The position numbers and the translations under genes were made by a program. From Roseateles aquatilis (GTDB taxonomy: Bacteria > Pseudomonadota > Gammaproteobacteria > Burkholderiales > Burkholderiaceae_C), in contig NZ_NIOF01000007.1 of the NCBI RefSeq assembly GCF_002205645.1, positions 124,001-188,000 on the forward strand: DNA of 64,000 bases, given 5' to 3'. A model generated the notes under the pieces. That model ran no database searches. It was not told the DNA's origin and saw only the letters and a program-made list of their open reading frames with translations. This document shows positions 24,509-34,454 of the stretch, piece after piece. Position 1 is the stretch's first letter; every line of letters starts with the position of its first letter.

Positions 24509-24937
24509 TCAATCCTTCAGATGGCTGTTGATCAGACGGGTCATCTCGAACATGTCCGCCTTGGCCTTGCCGAAGATTTCCTTCAGCTTGGCATCGGCGT
24601 TGATGACGCGCTTCTGAGCCGCATCCTGCAGGTTGTGCTTCTTGATGTATTCCCAGACCTTCTTCACCACGTCGGTCCGCGGCAGCGGCTTGTCGCCGAC
24701 GATCGCGGCCAGCGCGGGGCTGGGGGTCAGGGCCTTCATGAAGGCGGCGTTGGGGGTGCGCTTCTTCGCGGGCGCGGCCGTCTTGGCCGCGGGCGCCTTG
24801 GCAGGAGCCTTCGCGGGCGCAGCCTTCTTCGCAGGAGCCGCCGCCTTCTTCGCCGGAGCGGCGGCCTTCTTCGCAGGAGCCGCCTTCTTCGCCGGCGCCG
24901 CCTTCTTGGCGGGCGCGGCCTTCTTCGCAGTTGCCAT
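24509..24937 (-). CDS. SWIB/MDM2-domain protein with histone-H1-like tail
   Basis: A 142-residue protein. Residues 1-60 are a lysine/alanine/proline array (repeated AAPAKK) like histone H1 C-terminal tails. Residues 63-142 form a SWIB domain (LTPSPALAAIVGDKPLPRTD, VWEYIKKHNLQ, INADAKLKEIFG). In bacteria SWIB-plus-basic-tail proteins are taken as DNA-binding nucleoid proteins; a chromatin role here is inferred. The start at 24937 has GGAGAGAA upstream. Confidence 0.92.
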   Translation of the reverse strand: MATAKKAAPAKKAAPAKKAAPAKKAAAPAKKAAAPAKKAAPAKAPAKAPAAKTAAPAKKRTPNAAFMKALTPSPALAAIVGDKPLPRTDVVKKVWEYIKKHNLQDAAQKRVINADAKLKEIFGKAKADMFEMTRLINSHLKD

Positions 24938-25304
24938 TTCGATTCTCTCCATCAAGGGTTGTTGATGTGCCGGGCCCTGGTGAAGGTCTGACGCCTTCGG
25001 TACTCGTTGGCACCCTGCGCGGGCAATGGTACTGCGCACCTCTGCCATTGAGAAGGCTTTACCGGGGGGGAAACGAACTGGAAGTCAACGCCGAACCCTC
25101 GCTTTGTCGCAGGCGCGCATCAGTCCACGCGTCGCGACGCGTCCGCTACGGGCTTCCCCGTGGTCATCGCGGTCGCGCGGCATCGGCCGATCCCGACGCG
25201 CGCGCGTCGATCGGAGGCGCTCGCGCAACCACGATCCAGGCCGCGATCGACGTCCCGATCAACGTCCTGATCGGCCTGCCGTTCGAGGCCCCGATGCCCA
25301 CGGC
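24938..25304. other. Intergenic stretch between SWIB gene and iron cluster
   Basis: 367 bp without a convincing gene. The left end is the SWIB promoter region. The right part (about 25150-25290) is rich in CGATC/GATCG words in both orientations, and open frames across it have highly biased Arg/Asp composition typical of shadows. Confidence 0.5.
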
Positions 25305-26717
25305 TCAATACACGTCGCGTCGGTACCGGCCGTGCTGGATCAGCGCGTCGACCGATGCCTCGCCGAGTGTCTCCCGCAGCACCGCGTCGACCGCGCCCGC
25401 CATGCCTTGCAGGCTGCCGCAGACGTAGAGCGCGGCGCCGTGCTGGATCCACTCGCGCAGCCGCTGCGCATGGCGCGCGAGCAGATGCTGGACATGCAGC
25501 CGCTCCGATTGGTCGCGCGAGAACGCCCAGTCCGCATGCGCGATCAGACCGTCGCGCTGCCAGCCCTCGATCTCGTCGCGGCAATGCGCATCGTGCGCGG
25601 ACTGGCGCTCGCCGAAGAGCAGCCAGGCCGGCGCGACCGATGGCGACGATGCGAGCCTCGATGCCGACGCTGCGCGCGCCTTCAGGTGCGCGCGCAGACC
25701 GGCGAGACCCGTGCCGTTGCCGATCAGGATCAACCTGCGATCGCTGTTGGCGCCGATGCGGAAGCTCGCGTGCGGTCGCAGTCGCAGCGCGACGGTGCCG
25801 TCGAGCGGCAATTGCTCGGTCAGCAAGCCGGAGGCCAGGCCGGGCGTGCCGTCCTCGCGCGCGGTGCGGCGCACCATCAACGCGACACGGCCGTCGGAAG
25901 GCAGGGAGGCGATCGTGTACTCGCGCGGTCGGCGCGCATCGTCGCCGGCGCTGTCCAGCGCGATCCGGATCTGCACGAGATCACCGGCTTCCCATGCCGG
26001 CAGCGGCGTGCCGTCGGCAGGCGTGAGCTCGAGGTGGAACACCGGCCCGCCCTGGCTGCCCGGATTCAGATGACGGCGCGCGGTCAGTCGCCACGGCGTG
26101 AAGACCGGCGCGTCCCACTCGGCCAGATCGGCGGTGCCGGCGAGATGGCTAAGCCGCTGCCGCCACTGCGCGAGCGACTGCGGATCGGCGCGGTCGACGT
26201 CGATGCGATCGAACAGCGGCTGCGCGCCGCGCTCGTGCAGCCACGCGTCGAGCGCGCGACCGAAGCCGCAGAAGTGGCTGTACGTCGCGTCGCCGAGCGC
26301 CATCACGCCGACCTCCAGCGCCGACAGGTCCGGTGCGTCGGCCGCGGCCATCAGGTCGCGCGCGAACGGCGCGGCGCTGTCAGGCGCGTCGCCCTCGCCA
26401 TGGGTGCTGGCGATGAACAGCGCATGGCGCGCGGCCAGCAGCTCGTCGCGTCCGATCTCGCCGAGCGCGGCAACGCGCACCGGCATGCCCGCCAGGTGCA
26501 AGACCTTGGCGGTCTGCCACGCGATCTCCTCGGCCTGGCCGGTCTGGCTGGCGTGCAGCACGAGCACCGGCGGGCCGGCATCGGCGGCCGGCAACAGCGC
26601 GGCGCAGGCCGCCGCCGCCTGGTTCAGCCGACGGCGGTGGCGCCACCAGACCGCGGCGCACATCACCAGGTAGAGCGCGGTCAGCAGCAGCGCCGCCGCA
26701 GGACGGGACAGGATCAC
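25305..26717 (-). CDS. Membrane-anchored flavodoxin/FAD/NAD(P) oxidoreductase (sulfite-reductase flavoprotein-like)
   Basis: A 470-residue protein. An N-terminal membrane helix (about residues 5-25) is followed by a flavodoxin domain binding FMN (LVLHASQTGQAEEIA), an FAD-binding domain with REYTIASLP, and an NAD(P)-binding domain with LILIGNGTGLAGLRAHL and YVCGSLQGMAGAVDAVL. This is the layout of CPR/CysJ-type reductases, but there is no CysI nearby. It is the last gene of the iron cluster, 13 bp after apbE, and most likely supplies electrons to it, for example for reduction of ferric chelates. That role is an inference from context. Confidence 0.85.
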   Translation of the reverse strand: MILSRPAAALLLTALYLVMCAAVWWRHRRRLNQAAAACAALLPAADAGPPVLVLHASQTGQAEEIAWQTAKVLHLAGMPVRVAALGEIGRDELLAARHALFIASTHGEGDAPDSAAPFARDLMAAADAPDLSALEVGVMALGDATYSHFCGFGRALDAWLHERGAQPLFDRIDVDRADPQSLAQWRQRLSHLAGTADLAEWDAPVFTPWRLTARRHLNPGSQGGPVFHLELTPADGTPLPAWEAGDLVQIRIALDSAGDDARRPREYTIASLPSDGRVALMVRRTAREDGTPGLASGLLTEQLPLDGTVALRLRPHASFRIGANSDRRLILIGNGTGLAGLRAHLKARAASASRLASSPSVAPAWLLFGERQSAHDAHCRDEIEGWQRDGLIAHADWAFSRDQSERLHVQHLLARHAQRLREWIQHGAALYVCGSLQGMAGAVDAVLRETLGEASVDALIQHGRYRRDVY

Positions 26718-26730
26718 GACACCCTCTTTC

Positions 26731-27831
26731 TCACAGCATCAGTTCGCGCATGGCGGCGGAGAAGGTCTCCTCGAAACCGCCGCCCTCGGCCGCCGTCCGG
26801 CGCCGCACCAGCAGTGCCGCCAGCCCGAGCCGGTCCGCCAGTGCGAGCCCGTCGCGCGGGCCGAGCACCATCAGCGCGGTCGACCAGCCGTCCGCCCACA
26901 TCGCGCTGTCATGCACAACGGTGACCGCGGCCAGCCCGTGCGCCACCGGCTGGCGCGTGCGGGGATCGAGGGTGTGGGAGCGCCGATGGCCGTCGGCACC
27001 GGCGTAGTACTTGCGGTAATCGCCGGAGGTGGCGACCGCCAGGCCGTGCAGCGCCAGCCGCACCGGCGCCAGGCCGCAGTCGGCCGACAGCGGCTCCAGA
27101 TCCACCCACCAGGGCTGGCCGTCCGGCTTGAGGCCGGCGCCGCGCAGCTCGCCGCCGATCTCGACGAGGTGATTCGGCAAGCCCAGCCGGGTCAGCAACT
27201 CCGACACGCGATCGACCGCATGGCCCTTGGCGATCGCGGACAGGTCCAGCGTCGCGCCGCCAGGCTGCGTCAGCGCGCGGCGTTCGCCATCCCACGGGAG
27301 CGAGTCCCAGCCACAGTGCACGCGGGCGCGATCGGCGGCCGACGGCACGCGGAAGTCCGGCGCGTCGTGGCGCGGCGCGAGGGCCGTTTCTCCAGTCGGT
27401 CCAAAGCCCCACAACGCGACCAGCCCGCCGGCGGTCGGGTCGTACGCCCCGTCGCTGGCCGCGGCGATGCGCAGCGCGGCATCGAGGACGCTGGCGAAAC
27501 CCTCCGGCAACACGCGCACGCTGCCGACCGCCGCGCGGTTGAAGCGGCTGAGATCGGAGGCCGCCGTCCAATGGCTCATCTGCTCGATCACGTCGTCGCA
27601 GACGTGGACGACGGCCTCGGCGATCGTGCTGTCGCGCAAGCCCGCCGGGCCGATGAAGCGCACCGACCAGGTGGTGCCCATCGTCTCGCCGTCCAGCGCG
27701 TGCAAGGTCTGGCCCAGCGACGGCGGCTCCCCGTCGATGCGCAGGGGGACGAGCACGCGCGGCTCGGGCGGCGGGTGCGGCGACATCGCGCCGCCCCCCG
27801 CGCCCGAGACGTCGGCCGTCCCCGCGGTCAT
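26731..27831 (-). CDS. apbE: FAD:protein FMN transferase
   Basis: A 366-residue ApbE-family enzyme, which moves FMN from FAD onto a Thr/Ser of target proteins. Motifs: LDGETMGTTWSVRF, YDPTAGGLVALWGFGP, LDLSAIAKGHAVDRV, LVEIGGELRGAG and SHTLDPRTRQPVAHG. No signal peptide or lipobox is visible at the N-terminus, unlike typical periplasmic ApbE. The start overlaps the DUF4198 stop (TGATG), so translation is coupled. The likely target is the DUF2271 protein two genes upstream, which has a flavinylation-like motif. Confidence 0.9.
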   Translation of the reverse strand: MTAGTADVSGAGGGAMSPHPPPEPRVLVPLRIDGEPPSLGQTLHALDGETMGTTWSVRFIGPAGLRDSTIAEAVVHVCDDVIEQMSHWTAASDLSRFNRAAVGSVRVLPEGFASVLDAALRIAAASDGAYDPTAGGLVALWGFGPTGETALAPRHDAPDFRVPSAADRARVHCGWDSLPWDGERRALTQPGGATLDLSAIAKGHAVDRVSELLTRLGLPNHLVEIGGELRGAGLKPDGQPWWVDLEPLSADCGLAPVRLALHGLAVATSGDYRKYYAGADGHRRSHTLDPRTRQPVAHGLAAVTVVHDSAMWADGWSTALMVLGPRDGLALADRLGLAALLVRRRTAAEGGGFEETFSAAMRELML

Positions 27832-28673
27832 CACTTCGGCAGGACCTCGAAGGTCGCGCTCACGGTGGCGCGCTGCACCGGCGCGGCACGCGTGCCGGCC
27901 GGCGCGTCGGGACCGCGCGCCGGACCCGAGCTGGCGCCGATGAAGTAGCGGCCGGGCTCGGTCCACTCGACGGTGAACTCGCCCTTGGCGTCCGACTTCA
28001 GCTCGACCTCGCCGAACTTGTAGCGGTAGCGGTTGCCTTCGCGGATCAGCTTGATCTGGATGTCGGCGGCCGGCTTGCCGTCCAGCACCAGGCGGAACTT
28101 GGTCCTGTCGCCGTGGCTCAGGTCGGTGACCGGGCCCAGCGGCAGCAACTCCAGGCCGTTGCCCTCGGGCGCGAAGTCGACCTTGCCGGCCTCTTCCTTG
28201 CTGACGAAGGTCTGCTGGCGGTTGGTGGTCAGCGACATCGCGGTGATCTCGGCATCGGCCGGCACGTCCTTGGCGAAGGTCGCCGGCGTGCTGCGGAAGC
28301 GCTTGGTCTCGCCGCCCTGCTTGTAGCTGCCCATCAGCGCCTGGCTGATGTTGCTGACGCGGTAGGTGCCGTCCAGCGTCAGCTTCAGGTCGAAGCTCTC
28401 GCGGTGGCGGGCGGCGTTGCGGTTCTCGGGCTCCAGCGCCTTGCCGTCCGGGCCGGTGATGCGGACGGTCTCCAGCTTCAACGCGCGCTCGAAGTTGAAG
28501 AGGTCCTCGGAGACGGCGGCGTCGAAGGACGCGACCGGCTCCTTGCCGTCGAAGGCGGCCTTGTTGGGCAGCAGCCAGGTCATGTGGGCGTGCGCCGACA
28601 GCGGCAGCAGCGCGGCGACGGCCAGCGCCAGCGGCGCCAGACGGGAGGCGATCGGGGTGTTCAGCAGCGTCAT
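27831..28673 (-). CDS. DUF4198 periplasmic protein
   Basis: A 280-residue protein with a signal peptide ending SAHA and a mature start of HMTWLLPN, typical for DUF4198. The body is beta-rich and ends with a carboxypeptidase-like/Ig-like segment (YKFGEVELKSDAKGEFTVEW). DUF4198 proteins are found in iron and nickel/cobalt uptake clusters and are thought to act in the periplasm; binding of metal by the N-terminal His is an inference. Located between DUF2271 and apbE. Confidence 0.85.
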   Translation of the reverse strand: MTLLNTPIASRLAPLALAVAALLPLSAHAHMTWLLPNKAAFDGKEPVASFDAAVSEDLFNFERALKLETVRITGPDGKALEPENRNAARHRESFDLKLTLDGTYRVSNISQALMGSYKQGGETKRFRSTPATFAKDVPADAEITAMSLTTNRQQTFVSKEEAGKVDFAPEGNGLELLPLGPVTDLSHGDRTKFRLVLDGKPAADIQIKLIREGNRYRYKFGEVELKSDAKGEFTVEWTEPGRYFIGASSGPARGPDAPAGTRAAPVQRATVSATFEVLPK

Positions 28674-28710
28674 GGGTGCGTTCCTGCGTGCGAGGTCTTG
28701 GGGCGGGCGA

Positions 28711-29259
28711 TCAGGGCTTGGCGGTCAGTTCGAGGGCGCCGAGCTCATGCTCGCCTTGCACCTTCACGGACTGCGGCGCCTTCACCGGCCAGGTCAGCGG
28801 CAGGCGCTGCACCTCGCGGCCGCCGGCTTCGCGGCTGGACTCGATCACCAGGTCGTACTTGCCCGGGGGCAGCGCGGCGAGCGCGGCGTTGGTGTCGAGG
28901 CTGATGGCGTGCTCACCCGGCGCGCGCGTCGCGGCGGTCACGCCGTCGGCCGGCACGGTCAGGGCGCGACCGCCCTGGCGCCACCACTGGCGCATGTCCT
29001 TGAGCCACTTGGTGCCGGCGTTGTTCTGCTTCTTGACGTCGTACCAGACCGCCAGTTGCGCCACGGCGGGGCCGGACTCGCCGGCCTTCTCCACCCAGAC
29101 GGCGATGTAGGGGCGGTGGTACTCGGCGACGTTCAGGCGCGGCAGCTCCAGCTTGAGCTGCACGGTGGCGGCCCAGGCGGACGAGCCGGCGCCGAACGCG
29201 CCCAGCGCACCCAGCGCCAGGAGGGTTCGACTGGGGAGGCGAGGAGCGGAGCGATGCAT
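28711..29259 (-). CDS. DUF2271 periplasmic protein with flavinylation-like motif
   Basis: A 182-residue exported protein. The signal peptide covers about residues 1-30 (ending SSAWA). The mature part has the DUF2271 pattern (LNVAEYHRPYIAVWVEK, TKWLKDMRQWWRQGGR). It contains DGVTAATR at D105-R112, close to the D-x-x-[ST]-[GA]-A-[ST] motif to which ApbE attaches FMN; T111 would be the acceptor. With apbE two genes away, this is a good candidate for a periplasmic flavoprotein. The start at 29259 gives a clean signal peptide; the frame extends to a TTG at 29379. Confidence 0.85.
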   Translation of the reverse strand: MHRSAPRLPSRTLLALGALGAFGAGSSAWAATVQLKLELPRLNVAEYHRPYIAVWVEKAGESGPAVAQLAVWYDVKKQNNAGTKWLKDMRQWWRQGGRALTVPADGVTAATRAPGEHAISLDTNAALAALPPGKYDLVIESSREAGGREVQRLPLTWPVKAPQSVKVQGEHELGALELTAKP

Positions 29260-29375
29260 GGTCGTGGTCTCGGTTGTGAATCGGATCGGGAGGGCGGAGG
29301 TCCTGGCGACGGCTCGGAACGGAAGAAGAAATCGGGGCGACGGCGCGTGGCTGCGATCGGGCCGCGCGCGATCGG

Positions 29376-30017
29376 TCAATGGATCAGCAGCAGCGCCAGC
29401 AGCGCGGGAATCACCAGCCCCAGGCCGACCAGCGGCCAGGTGCTGGGCCGGCTGACCGCATGGAACTTCAGGATCAGCAGGCCGGTGATCGAGAACAACA
29501 GGCAGGCGGCGGCGAAGATGTCGATGAACCAGCTCCAGGCGACGCCGGCATTGCGCCCCTTGTGCAGGTCGTTGAGGAAGGAGATCCAGCCGCGGTCGGT
29601 GTCCTCGAATTCGATCTCGCCGCTGTCACGCGCGATGCGGATCCAGGCATCGCCGCCGGGTCGCGGCAGGGCGAGGTAGATCTCGTCGCGACTCCATTCG
29701 GCCTCGCGCGCGTCGATCGGGCGGTCCAGTTCCTTGGCCAGCCAGGCCCGCACCGGCGCCGGCACGGCGGCCTTGTGGTCCGCTTCCTTGTCGGCGACGG
29801 GGCGCACGGCCTTCACCAGCTCGTCGGGCAATCGCGCCGTCTTGTTGACGATCGCGGGTTTGGCTTCGATGTCGGCGGCGTGGTTCAGCGTGAAGCCGGT
29901 GACGGCGAACAGGATCATGCCGATCAGGCAGACCGCCGAGCTGATCCAGTGCCACTGGTGCAGCTGCTTGAGCCAGGCGGACCGCCGGGCGGGATTGGGG
30001 TGCGTGGGCTCGCTCAT
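29376..30017 (-). CDS. PepSY-associated membrane protein
   Basis: A 213-residue protein with three predicted membrane helices (about residues 25-48, 160-182, 190-212) and a periplasmic PepSY-like domain between helices 1 and 2. Typical family features are [20 protein letters not shown] and [20 protein letters not shown]. The histidines around helices 1 and 2 resemble haem-ligating positions in PepSY ferric reductases. Such proteins accompany siderophore uptake systems. Its ATG overlaps the stop of the dioxygenase gene (ATGA), so the two are translationally coupled. Confidence 0.87.
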
Positions 30018-30694
30018 GTCTCGGCCCAGAGCCGCAGCAGGTTGTGATAGTGGCCGGTCAACGCGGTGGTCTCGGCGTCGTCGCCCAGGCGGCCGCGCAG
30101 CTTCTGGATGGTCTGGTCGAGCTCGAACAGCATCGCGCGCTGCCAGTCCTGGCGGATCATGCTCTGCGTCCAGAAGAACGAGCACACGCGCGCACCGCGC
30201 GTCACCGGCATCACGCGATGCAGGCTGGTGCTGGCGTAGACGATCAGGTCGCCGGCCGGCAGCTTGACTTCGTGGGTGCCGTAGGTGTCGACGACTTCCA
30301 GCTCGCCGCCCTCGTACTCGTCGGGCTCGCACAGGAACAGCGTCGAGGACACGTCGCTGCGCAGCGGCTGCTCGGTGCCGCGCTGGCGCATGATCGCGCC
30401 GTCGACGTGGAAGCCGTATTGCTCGCCGCCCTCGTAGCGGTTGAACAGCGGCGCCAGCGTGCGCAGCGGCAGCGCGGCCGACGTGAAGACCGGGTGGCGC
30501 GCCAGCACCTGGCGAATGTGCGCGCCGATCTGGACGGCCGCCGGATGGTCGACCGGCAGTTGGCGGTTCTGCTTGACCTTGGCGCCCTGCTCGCCCACGG
30601 TCGCGCGGCCGTCGGTCCAGTCGGCGGCGTCGAGCAGCCGGCGCATCTCGCGCACGTCCTGCTTGCTGAGCACTTCGGGGATGTGAAGGAGCAT
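30014..30694 (-). CDS. piuC: Fe(II)/2-oxoglutarate dioxygenase, PiuC/PKHD type
   Basis: A 226-residue PKHD-type hydroxylase. The iron-binding triad is H96-x-D98 ([10 protein letters not shown]) and H159 (TSLHRVMPV); R169 is positioned to bind 2-oxoglutarate. PiuC homologues occur next to TonB receptors of the PiuA/Fiu type and are iron-regulated; their substrate is not settled. Here the TonB receptor gene is immediately upstream in the transcript, separated by a large hairpin. Confidence 0.9.
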
Positions 30695-30737
30695 GTCCGG
30701 ATCGAATCGAAATCGGGAAAGGCCTGGACGGCAGAAG

Positions 30738-30767
30738 GCCCGCCCCTGCCGGGGCAGGGACGGGCCG
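30738..30767. terminator. Large hairpin between the TonB receptor gene and piuC
   Basis: GGCCCG-C-CCCTGCC, loop GG, GGCAGGG-A-CGGGCC gives a 13-bp stem with one mismatch, in the 97-bp gap between two co-directional genes. No T-run, so it may attenuate or stabilise mRNA rather than fully terminate. Confidence 0.5.
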
Positions 30768-30791
30768 GTCTCGTACGCTACCTCAAAGCGC

Positions 30792-33113
30792 TCAGAACCC
30801 GATGTTGGCCATCAGCGTGACCGCGCGCGGAGCGCCCAGCACCAGGCGGCCACCGCCGTTGTTCAGCGAGGACATGTAGTCCTTGTCGAACAGGTTGGTG
30901 ACGTTCAGCTGCAGGTTGACGTTCTTGTTGACGCGGTAGGCCCCCATCAGGTCGACCACGGTGAAGGCGGGCAGTTGCGGCAGGCCGGTCGAGTTAGGCT
31001 GGGCCACGGTGACCACGCGCTTTTGCTCGGCGGTGTGGCGCACGCCGCCGCCGATGGTGAAGTCACCCCACTGGTAGGAGTTCCACAGCACGGCGGACCA
31101 CTTCGGCGTCCAGCGCACGCCGTCGGTCACGACCTGGTTGGGCGCGGTGGCCGTCGAGGCGGCACGCTGGTTGATCTGCTTCGGATCCATGGTCTGGAAG
31201 CCGGCGGTGATCTGCCAGAAGTTGGTGATCTGGCCCACGGCGGCCAGCTCGATGCCCTGCACGCGGGTCTTGCCGCCTTGCGTGGCGAGGTTGGTCACCG
31301 GGTCCACGCTGACCTGGCCGTCGTTCTCGCTGCGGTACAGCGCGGCGGTCAGGTTCAGGCGCTTGTTCAGCAGGTCCCACTTCGTGCCGATCTCGTAGTT
31401 CTTGGTCTCCTGCGCGTCGGCGGTGCCGGCGGTCTGGCCGGCGCCGCTCAGCGTGAAGTTGGCGCTGCCGGGCGGCGTCAGCGAGTTGCCGGCGGCGGCG
31501 TACACGGTGCCGTTGTCCGCGAGCTTGTACAGCGCGCCGACGTTCCAGCTGGTGATCCACTTGCCGGCGGAGAACTTGGCGTTCGTCACGACGTTGTTGG
31601 CGAGCGTGCCGGTCGTGGTGCGGATCGTGTAGTGCTCGGTGCGCAGGCCCAGCGTCAGCTTGAAGGCGTCCGTCAACGACAGCGTGTCCATCGCGTAGAT
31701 GGCCTGCGTGCTGGTGCTGCCATCGGTGTCGGCGCCGGTGGCGAACGGGGTCGGCAGGCTGTCGGCGGTGCTGGGGCGATACAGGTTGGCGTAGGTGATG
31801 GTCTGGCCGGTGGTCGCGAAGCCCTTGGTCTGCTGGCTTTCGTACATCAGCTCGATGCCGGTGGCCAGGTCGTGCTTGACGCCGCCGGTCTGGAAGCTGG
31901 TGTTCAGCGTGGTCTGGTTGGCCAGGATGTCGTTGGTCTGATCGACGCGCTGGCGCGAGCGCGAGATCTTCCAGGTGCCCGGATCCGCCGTGACGATGCC
32001 GGTGGTCTGCGCGTCGCCGGCCACCGGGGCCGCGAAGATCGTGATGATGCCGGTCAACGTGCGGTCCATGTGCGTGCGGCCGTAGCGGGCCACGTTGCGC
32101 ACGGTGGTGCCGCCGCCCAGGTCCATCTCCAGCTTGGCGGTGACCATGTCGGCCTTGACCTTCTCGCGGTCGCTGGCGCTGCCGTAGAAGTTGTCGCTGT
32201 TGACCTTGGGCGCGGCGAGCATCGCGGTGGCCACCGCGGGCGCGACCGTCGGCGCGACGGTGTAGCCCGGCCAGCCGATGGCGGGGATGCCGCCGTCCGG
32301 CACGTTGTTCTGGCGCACATGCTGCGAGAACAGGAAGAAGCGGGTGCTGGAGCCCAGGCCGAAGGCCACCGACGGCGCGATGCCGTAAGTCTTGCGCTTG
32401 ACGAAGTCGCGGCCCGGCACGCCGTTGTCCTGCCACACCGCGTTCAGGCGCACGGCGGTGCCGTCCATCACCTTCTGGTTGGTGTCGACCGAGATGCGCT
32501 TGCGGCTGGCGTCGCCGACGACGAACGCGCCTTCGGTGAAGCTGTCCAGCTGCGGCAGCTTCGAGATCAGGTTGATGTAGCCGGCGGACGCGCCGCGACC
32601 GGTGTCGGCGCCGGCGGGCCCCTTCACCACTTCGATCTGCTCGACGTTGAAGACGTCGCGGGTCACCGCGCCCAGGTCGCGGATGCCGTCCACGAAGGTC
32701 GAGGTGGCGGCCGAGAAGCCGCGCATCTGGAAGGCGTCGCCGGCGGAGGTGTTGCCGTTCTCGCCCAGCTGCATCGTGATGCCGGGGGTGTTCTGCAGCG
32801 CGTCCATCAGCGAGACGGCGCCCTGCTCGCGCAGCACTTCCTTCTTGATGACCTGGATGGTCTTGGGCGTTTCCAGCAGCGGCTGCGTGAGCTTGGACGA
32901 GGCGCTCCGGTCGGCCTTGTAGTCGGACTGGGCGGTGCCCTCGACCTTCACCTGCGGCAGGTACGGAGCGCCGGAGGCGGAGGCCGTCGCCTGGGCGGCA
33001 TCGGCGGGGGCCGGAGCGTCGGCGGCGTGCGCCGTCAGCGGCAGGGTCAGGCTGGCGGCCAGCGCGGCCAGGGGGGCCACCGCGTGCTTGCGGCTCTTGA
33101 TGTAGCGGGACAT
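30792..33113 (-). CDS. TonB-dependent siderophore receptor (Fiu/PiuA-like)
   Basis: A 773-residue outer-membrane receptor. The signal peptide ends in LTAHA. A plug domain follows ([53 protein letters not shown]), then a 22-strand barrel ending in an aromatic residue (VTLMANIGF). The pattern matches catecholate-siderophore receptors of the Fiu/PiuA group, which agrees with the adjacent piuC. It starts at ATG 33113; a Fur box lies about 170 bp upstream. It heads the iron cluster that continues through to the reductase at 25305. Confidence 0.93.
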
Positions 33114-33279
33114 GGAAACGTGCTCCGAGAGGGAATGTTGTTTTGACGAATCTGGCTCTGCTGGCTGCACGTTGGTGGCGCCGTCCCGCGCTTCATGGCG
33201 CATGGTGACGGTGCCTCCTCCCTGGTCGCGACTGGCTGGCGGAAGTGGTGATCAAGTCCGTCGCCGGACTCGAAGGCCG

Positions 33280-33302
33280 CAAATGCTAAGCATTCTCATT
33301 TG
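33280..33302. promoter_or_regulatory. Fur box of the iron-uptake cluster
   Basis: On the minus strand AAATGAGAATGCTTAGCATT matches the AT-rich hexamer pattern of Fur sites (GATAAT-like units AATGAG, GAATGC, AGCATT), in an otherwise GC-rich region upstream of the TonB receptor gene. It implies repression by Fur with iron. Confidence 0.75.
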
Positions 33303-33384
33303 TATGTGTCAAAGAAATGCAGCATTTCTCTCGTTGCGCGTGGCGCACTTGCGACGGTCGAGGGGGCTCCGCCCCAAAAGCACG

Positions 33385-33416
33385 ACACCCGCGGACGCTG
33401 CGCGTCACGCGGGTGT
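33385..33416. terminator. Hairpin downstream of terC
   Basis: ACACCCGCG and CGCGGGTGT form a 9-bp perfect stem around a 14-nt loop, 52 bp after the terC stop. T-run is weak. Confidence 0.5.
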
Positions 33417-33467
33417 GAAGAGGTGGGCCGGGGTGCGCCCCGGCCGGGGGAAGGAATCAGGCGGCCG

Positions 33468-34454
33468 TCAGTTCAGCGCCTCCGGCTCGCCGTCCTTGCC
33501 TTGCGGCAGACGCGGCGCGGTGCGCAGGCTCAGCCACATCGTCACCGCCAGGATGCCGATCACGACGCCCAGCGACAGCAGCACCGGGATCTTGATGACG
33601 TCGATCAGCATCATCTTGCCGCCGATGAACACCAGCACCACCGCCAGGCCGTAGCTCAGCAGATGGAACTTGGACGCCATCGCCGCCAGCAGGAAGTACA
33701 TCGCGCGCAGGCCCAGGATGGCGAAGATGTTGGAGCTCAGGACGATGAACGGATCGGACGTGATCGCGAAGATCGCCGGGATCGAGTCGACCGCGAAGAT
33801 CACGTCGGTCAGGCCCACCAGCGCGATCACCAGCATCATCGGCGTGGCGATGCGCTTGCCGTTCTCAAGCGTGAAGAAGCGTTCGCCGTCGAAGTTCTTG
33901 CTGACCGGCAGCACCTTGCGCAGCAGCTTCAACGCGGGGTTGTCCTCGAGGTCCGGCTCCTGGCCGGCCGCCCACCACATCTTGATGCCGGTGATCAGCA
34001 GGAAGGCGCCGAACAGGTACAGGATCCAGTGGAACTGCGCGATCAGCCAGCCGCCCACCAGGATCATCACCGTGCGCAGCACGATGGCGCCGATGATGCC
34101 CATCATCAGCACCCGCTTCTGGTAGGCCGCCGGGACCGAGAAGTAGGTGAAGATCATCAGGAAGACAAAGATGTTGTCGACCGCCAGCGATTTCTCGATG
34201 AGATAGCCGGTGATGAACTCGAGCGCCTTGGTGTTGGCCAACGCCGTGTCTCCGGTGCCGTCACGCACGGCCCACCACAGCAGACCCATGAAGGCGACGC
34301 TGAGCGCCACCCAGACCAGCGACCAGTTGACCGCTTCCTTGACCGAGACCTCGTGCGCGCCCTGCTTGCGCAGGACGACGAAGTCCAGGAACAGCGAGAC
34401 GATGACGATGCCGACAAAAACCGCCCACAACCAGGTGGGCACGATCGTGCTCAT
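33468..34454 (-). CDS. TerC-family membrane protein (Alx-like), riboswitch-controlled
   Basis: A 328-residue TerC-family integral membrane protein with about nine helices and the conserved acidic helices IEKSLAVDNIFVFLMIF and GLTDVIFAVDSIPAIFAITS. It is close in size and pattern to E. coli Alx, which exports manganese. A yybP-ykoY riboswitch lies in the leader, which fits Mn2+-dependent control and a manganese-export role. It starts at ATG 34454 behind AAGGAG. A second, shorter TerC paralogue is encoded at 45813-46544 without such a leader. Confidence 0.92.
   Translation of the reverse strand: MSTIVPTWLWAVFVGIVIVSLFLDFVVLRKQGAHEVSVKEAVNWSLVWVALSVAFMGLLWWAVRDGTGDTALANTKALEFITGYLIEKSLAVDNIFVFLMIFTYFSVPAAYQKRVLMMGIIGAIVLRTVMILVGGWLIAQFHWILYLFGAFLLITGIKMWWAAGQEPDLEDNPALKLLRKVLPVSKNFDGERFFTLENGKRIATPMMLVIALVGLTDVIFAVDSIPAIFAITSDPFIVLSSNIFAILGLRAMYFLLAAMASKFHLLSYGLAVVLVFIGGKMMLIDVIKIPVLLSLGVVIGILAVTMWLSLRTAPRLPQGKDGEPEALN

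Follow-up and report, generated by a model that had tools for sequence, protein, structure and literature searches.

A Fur-box operon of Roseateles aquatilis with a predicted flavin-based periplasmic reductase and an ApbE without a recognisable export signal

We analysed a stretch of 64,000 nucleotides of Roseateles aquatilis (RefSeq assembly GCF_002205645.1, contig NZ_NIOF01000007.1, positions 124,001 to 188,000; hereafter the window), whose minus strand carries, between positions 25305 and 33312, a compact operon of seven genes behind one promoter. The operon is likely to serve iron acquisition under Fur control, with an outer-membrane Fiu/PiuC uptake module joined to a PepSY-like, flavin-based reductase of the periplasm, and with a flavin transferase, ApbE, that modifies the precursor of its substrate, a DUF2271 protein, in the cytosol. 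Flavin-linked iron operons are a known class; this one belongs to it, is well formed and in itself ordinary, and its interpretation is largely a rediscovery. The topology pattern that it shares with its relatives, an ApbE without an export signal next to a substrate that has one, is an oddity of the whole class that we did not find in print.

From the promoter onwards, the operon encodes a TonB-dependent receptor of the Fiu/PiuA type (30792-33113; Pfam plug and barrel), a PiuC/YbiX-type Fe(II) dioxygenase (30014-30694; PKHD_C and 2OG-FeII_Oxy_3), a PepSY_TM_like_2 membrane protein (29376-30017; PF16357, E-value 2.9e-81), the DUF2271 protein (28711-29259; PF10029, 3.2e-45), a secreted DUF4198 protein (27831-28673; PF10670, 1.1e-35), ApbE (26731-27831; PF02424, 7.1e-74) and an N-terminally membrane-anchored, CysJ/CPR-like diflavin reductase (25305-26717; Flavodoxin_1 and NAD_binding_1). 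Adjacent genes overlap or are at most 116 bases apart, and the apbE start codon shares one base with the DUF4198 stop codon. All the genes named in an earlier note on this DNA were recovered with Pfam and NCBIfam; the coordinates given there, 28711-33302, take in the DUF2271, PepSY, PiuC and receptor genes and the promoter, while those for DUF4198, ApbE and the reductase lie downstream.

The promoter region (33279-33312, minus strand) contains the only sigma-70-like promoter found within 24900-33500, with TTGACA at 33312 and TAGCAT ending at 33283, and it overlaps a Fur box at 33279-33297. This box agrees at 14 of 19 positions with a 19-base Fur consensus, and it is the best match in the window, in line with the single Fur box of the earlier note. 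Upstream of the receptor gene in 17 relatives, the best matches ranged from 9 to 16 of 19, the box being clear in the nearest relatives and weak or absent in some others. Since terminator-like sites were no more frequent than chance (4 found, 3.4 expected), the end of the operon is not fixed.

To call export signals we used a hydrophobicity rule, namely an uncharged stretch of 11 residues with a mean Kyte-Doolittle value of at least 1.5, scored from all ATG, GTG and TTG starts within 75 codons. The N-terminus of the DUF2271 protein scored 2.02 and reads as a Sec-type signal peptide. Its residues D105-G-V-T-A-A-T111 (28927-28947), numbered correctly in the earlier note with the ATG at 29259, form the only match to D-x-x-[ST]-[GA]-A-[ST] among the seven operon proteins, and this relaxed motif arises in 0.1% of 100,000 shuffles of mature DUF2271. 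We compared the site column in 91 non-redundant DUF2271 proteins, the window's included, from loci with ApbE and PepSY hits. Results showed T at position 7 in 91/91, D at position 1 in 89/91 and S or T at position 4 in 91/91; position 5 was G in 64 and A in 12, the window's protein being among the 12, and position 6 was A in 67 and P in 24. The earlier note had held that its assignment would fall if the motif were not conserved beside apbE, and this comparison did not refute it. The proline at position 6 (for example DGVTGPT or DGVTQPT; loci L071, L080-L082, L086, L088, L090, L151, L153 and others) lies outside the published motif.

That motif is D-x-x-[ST]-G-A-[ST] (reviewed in PMC12052999), with G at position 5, and thus the window's site is a G-to-A variant: TAAT occupies the same column as the published [ST]GA[ST] without matching it to the letter. 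Within this conserved column the variant is ordinary. A set of 25 non-redundant DUF2271 proteins from loci lacking a nearby apbE mostly keeps the column too, which means that conservation by itself does not link the site to the adjacent ApbE. A DUF2271 protein from Amantichitinum ursilacus has been flavinylated in an ApbE-dependent manner, and the modification was lost on a Thr-to-Ala exchange (PMC8238504). The conserved column and this experiment support the earlier proposal that DUF2271 is the predicted ApbE substrate, with T111 as the acceptor. A second DUF2271 subfamily (L120, L123, L125-L148, L198-L207) has the site x-G-[VIL]-[ST]-G-A-S and stands beside a reductase hit and a mostly signal-less ApbE, with no separate PepSY hit.

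ApbE of the window matches solved ApbEs (best 5mgy, E-value 2.9e-63), and its TSGDY, SHTLDP and ADG align as counterparts of Ser241, His257 and Asp285 of Vc_ApbE (numbering by eye), whose roles are reviewed in PMC12052999. S269, H286 and D314 are retained in at least 98% of the aligned rows. The N-terminus (MTAGTADVSGAGGGAMSPH...) has no hydrophobic stretch, and the best score over all starts was 0.45, compared with 2.02 for DUF2271; the earlier note had tacitly placed ApbE with its exported substrate, a placement that the absence of an export signal does not bear out. As controls, nearly the same rule, allowing 8 more residues of the mature end, detected a signal in 115/115 DUF4198 and 155/159 DUF2271 proteins and in 2/63 of the cytosolic PiuC proteins. 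A mis-read start was discarded as an explanation, all ATG, GTG and TTG codons within the 75 having been scored, for the window's gene as for the others.

The same pattern was found across the class. Among 134 loci with ApbE hits, 129 were assessed, the match having begun too late in L058, L060, L095, L107 and L142. The loci L069-L208 and the window held 117 ApbEs, 114 of them assessed, which after removal of four fused ApbE-DUF2271 proteins left 110 separate DUF2271-linked ApbEs, 77 with a PepSY hit in the locus. No signal was detected in 101 of these 110. Inspection by eye of the nine signal-like cases traced six to an R-V-L-[VIL]-P leader or similar stretch and two to far-upstream starts; the ninth, L161, is a convincing lipoprotein. 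ApbEs linked to a DUF3570 protein (n = 15; seven adjacent, eight about 6-7 kb away) were signal-like in one case (L253), and NosR-type-linked ApbEs of related genomes carried a signal in 14/14, with twin arginines in 11. We called NosR-type an FMN_bind protein in a frame of 824-1036 residues within about 8 kb; the name is inferred by us, and these 14 were grouped once the N-termini had been seen. Of five other ApbEs, L261 and L270 have a signal and L249, L266 and the partial L271 have none. Fisher values of 7.5e-13 and 2.1e-7 for this signal survey, and a further value of 1.6e-12, ignore relatedness and overstate independence, because the sampled DUF2271-linked ApbEs form one clade. Our tree held 76 ApbEs, and in it the 46 DUF2271-linked rows, hand-picked from the 129, form one group with support 100/100. 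The four fusions (L193, L194, L196, L197), each a single polypeptide with a signal peptide, branch apart from this group as an ApbE lineage of their own.

Two features of these ApbEs may be recorded in their own right. Where a signal peptide would stand, many DUF2271-linked ApbEs, the window's included, have a short recurring leader (R-[VI]-[LA]-[VIL]-P), which precedes the MGT motif by about 30 residues. The second ApbE of the host genome, also signal-less and one of the 15 DUF3570-linked proteins, lies on contig C11 (L018:1405-3508, L272), where it adjoins a DUF3570 protein with D-S-V-S-G-A-S and where another gene reads as DsbD-like.

We also counted the ApbEs of whole genomes. In 48 of 80 genomes, hand-picked among DUF2271 genomes with apbE loci, there is a single ApbE (at an E-value of 1e-10), the one at DUF2271, and 41 of the 47 assessed have no signal; the window's genome has two ApbEs, both signal-less. 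Many genomes therefore show no signal-bearing ApbE although their DUF2271 is made with a signal peptide. Among L069-L208, 24 loci have no ApbE hit; 22 of these belong to 21 genomes in which no fetched DUF2271 locus has apbE, and all of them (21/21) encode an ApbE with a signal at another place.

Because ApbE is signal-less and DUF2271 has a Sec-type signal, the dedicated ApbE may act in the cytosol before export. The simplest explanation of the pattern is an ApbE lineage working in the cytosol on the precursor. A seven-residue tag suffices for ApbE (PMC12052999), and so a folded substrate is seemingly not required. A cytosolic substrate within the operon was considered and rejected: none of the operon's other six proteins has the motif, and in their homologues matches at any position were at most few and scattered. 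Export of pre-flavinylated DUF2271 by the Tat route was rejected as a general solution, since among 150 distinct DUF2271 N-termini an RR stands directly before the hydrophobic stretch in 8 and a Tat-like motif occurs in 1.

The best-surviving alternative, which we regard as unlikely although a serious competitor, is that DUF2271 receives its flavin after export, from an ApbE that has reached the periplasm by an unrecognised route: through the R-V-L-[VIL]-P leader, a signal of non-classical type or a start codon read wrongly. It is favoured by the signal-bearing ApbEs of the 21 genomes without a cluster apbE, by the lipoprotein-type signal of L161 within the same clade, and by the fact that most characterised ApbEs are periplasmic lipoproteins (PMC12052999), but it has to face 101 of 110 proteins giving no signal from any start within 75 codons under a rule that, in nearly the same form, finds almost every DUF2271 and DUF4198 signal while calling 2 of 63 PiuC proteins.

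Several further observations weigh against attachment of the flavin before export, or against the assignments on which it builds. L161, with its lipoprotein-type ApbE, falls inside the signal-less clade, and together with the 21 genomes that pair DUF2271 with a signal-bearing ApbE it means that attachment before export is not the universal rule. Nor does substrate class separate the ApbEs cleanly, because L249 and L266, divergent ApbE-like proteins directly beside FMN_bind proteins, are signal-less too. Two DUF2271 loci without apbE, L118 (G618) and L119 (G378), are each the second DUF2271 locus of a genome that has a single ApbE, placed at the first. The signal calls come from a hydrophobicity rule and not from SignalP. 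Both A. ursilacus constructs were called signal-peptide-truncated, so that the ApbE of that organism may have a signal. A G-to-A exchange at position 5 in the K. pneumoniae fumarate reductase gave less flavinylation, a degree of about 50% (PMC12052999), and our literature search found no experiment on the DUF2271 protein of the window. L249 and L266 stand beside FMN_bind proteins of genomes G468 and G494, and some similar places read as broken or split matches.

We put forward tentatively, at somewhat short of even chances, the wider proposal that the DUF2271-dedicated ApbE lineage, and probably the DUF3570-dedicated sets also, attach flavin mononucleotide (FMN) to Sec-type precursors in the cytosol, that the covalent flavin crosses the Sec channel on the unfolded chain, and that relatives with a lipoprotein ApbE mature DUF2271 on the opposite side of the membrane. 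Cytosolic ApbEs have been cited with substrates inside the cell (PMC12052999). The Klebsiella ApbE for fumarate reductase, like that of the window, has no signal peptide (PMC12052999), but its substrate stays in the cytosol, whereas the window's substrate has a Sec-type signal. The A. ursilacus pair resembles ours in that a DUF2271 protein is flavinylated with its cognate ApbE (PMC8238504), the likeness being one of description and not of sequence; it differs in that both constructs were truncated of their signal peptides and tested in E. coli, a test that is compatible with cytosolic attachment without being telling. In the open-licence literature we found no discussion of a cytosolic ApbE acting on an exported substrate, which does not prove that none exists.

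The remaining proteins fit a route of electrons to the DUF2271 flavin. The receptor passes the cut-off of the curated Fiu catecholate receptor model (NF007349, 700.6 against 686 bits), and by its family it would import a ferric catecholate-type chelate. The dioxygenase passes NF003975, for the PiuC/YbiX group (340.1 against 180), and fails the model of YbiX proper, NF003972 (279.7 against 399); as has been suggested in print for the family, it may transform the imported chelate. The reductase matched the solved CysJ and CPR (best E-value 3.3e-40) and begins with a hydrophobic N-terminus followed by WWRHRRR, so placed that NADPH (reduced nicotinamide adenine dinucleotide phosphate) would reduce it on the cytosolic side. 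The PepSY protein, of 213 residues, is over the cut-off for both PF16357 and PF03929 and is adjacent to DUF2271. In an alignment of 116 rows, near-copies included, its histidines were kept at position 23 in 112/112, at 46 in 104/112, at 152 in 116/116 and at 186 in 99/116, and these are candidate ligands of two haems, the pattern being the one expected for bis-His haems. A haem model for PepSY is in print (PMC11334425). Through such haems electrons could traverse the membrane, to arrive at FMN held covalently on T111 of DUF2271, a step for which we have the conserved site here and the chemistry in print for another DUF2271. The DUF2271 flavin would then reduce Fe(III) in the periplasm, with a ferric siderophore as a plausible electron acceptor. 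The conserved histidines lend support to the order of reductase, PepSY protein and flavin that the earlier note had drawn, and its iron context agrees with the Fur box, with the Fiu and PiuC-type families and with a Fur-regulated Caulobacter operon (PMC3751524). The least certain step is the one assigned to the signal-less ApbE, which most likely would flavinylate the DUF2271 precursor while this is still in the cytosol, ahead of Sec.

The earlier note had given DUF4198 no role, although the family has a published metal-binding N-terminal histidine (PMC12537917). Its signal scored 2.62, its mature N-terminus is probably His30 (cleavage between SAHA and HMTW), and the residue presumed to come first in the mature protein is a histidine in 98% of 114 aligned rows, which matches the metal site solved for IsDUF4198 of Ideonella sakaiensis (PDB 9GCB; PMC12537917). 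Through this site DUF4198 may hold the released metal. Searches of solved structures with DUF2271, DUF4198 and PepSY gave no significant match. IsDUF4198, a secreted DUF4198 with the same kind of site, differs in being read as a nickel binder, and ApbE, DUF2271, PepSY and flavin do not occur in the main text of that paper. The family thus has a published N-terminal His nickel site, yet here and in Caulobacter it stands in Fur-controlled operons with DUF2271 and ApbE.

Three other readings concern these partners. The reductase might serve PiuC or another cytosolic enzyme, with PepSY obtaining its electrons elsewhere; we hold this improbable, though worth keeping in view, as the reductase domains are cytosolic by topology, a piuC hit is present in 38 of the 62 loci with the core gene order and several PepSY and DUF2271 loci have no reductase hit, but the reductase keeps its place in the core order in 62/98 PepSY loci, 24 of these without any piuC hit in the fetched stretch. 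That the operon handles another metal such as nickel, with DUF4198 as a carrier, appears quite improbable: the binding of Ni(II) by IsDUF4198 (dissociation constant 18 nM; PMC12537917), which weighs against our iron reading, and the conserved N-terminal His of DUF4198 here are set against the Fur box, the Fiu and PiuC-type families and the Caulobacter operon's regulation by iron and Fur, while the thermal shifts reported for IsDUF4198 were with Ni, Zn, Co and Cu, iron not being among them. An inner-membrane siderophore permease, proposed for Alteromonas PepSY proteins beside TonB receptors (PMC7190382), is very improbable for a protein so small, with four conserved histidines, whose neighbours are a diflavin reductase and a flavinylation pair.

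The earlier note offered this system as a candidate, but such systems were described in 2021 by Meheust et al. (PMC8238504), and its model lies close to the published one, whose elements are set out in PMC8238504, PMC3751524, PMC12004947 and PMC11334425. Meheust et al. counted 3220 PepSY-like clusters, 2833 with DUF2271, 1500 with DUF4198 and 231 with a TonB receptor, and proposed iron reduction by PepSY-like/DUF2271/DUF4198/ApbE clusters. Their definition asks for a PF03929 or PF16357 gene within five genes of ApbE or DUF2271 and for at least one of the flavinylation genes to encode a signal peptide; the window's PepSY gene lies within that distance, and its DUF2271 carries the signal, by our hydrophobicity rule where the paper used SignalP 5. 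The window shares with these systems the PepSY-like protein (PF16357), DUF2271, DUF4198 and ApbE, and the TonB receptor with some of them. It differs in its TAAT, against their [ST]GA[ST]; PiuC does not occur in the main text of that paper, and the compartment of the DUF2271-linked ApbE is not discussed in its relevant passages. A close counterpart is Caulobacter crescentus CC_3059-3063, annotated as transporter, DUF2271, DUF4198, ApbE and sulfite reductase flavoprotein, in the same five-gene core order and regulated by Fur and iron with table values of 12 to 51 (PMC3751524); mutants in these genes (CCNA_03155-03159) were less fit in ethylenediaminetetraacetic acid (PMC12004947). In Caulobacter, CciT/CciO, the pair of TonB receptor and dioxygenase, has a separate locus (CCNA_00028/00027; PMC12004947), whereas the window's pair heads the same operon.

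DUF2271 was found in 92/399 sampled genomes of the family (91 over the curated cut-off) and in 70/398 of a phylum sample (65 over the cut-off). The order PepSY-DUF2271-DUF4198-ApbE-reductase occurs in 62 of the 98 fetched PepSY loci (L069-L208 and the window), and the full seven-gene order in 17 of the 98, the window included; seven families were looked for, and other genes may intervene. The host genome measures 6.4 Mb, and its DUF2271 is 86-89% identical to those of the best five of 18 named relatives (Mitsuaria/Roseateles). Adjoining the operon end, at 24509-25048 on the minus strand, lies a gene for a SWIB-domain protein whose domain is preceded by a long stretch of lysine/alanine/proline repeats.

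Taken together, the known flavin-based iron systems gain in this operon a clear member that is joined to a Fiu/PiuC module. If ApbE does act on the DUF2271 precursor in the cytosol, the cell would be freed from supplying flavin adenine dinucleotide to the periplasm. Confirmation of the topology pattern would show that a flavin can be joined covalently to a protein before Sec exports it, a point relevant to the cofactor supply of periplasmic flavoproteins.

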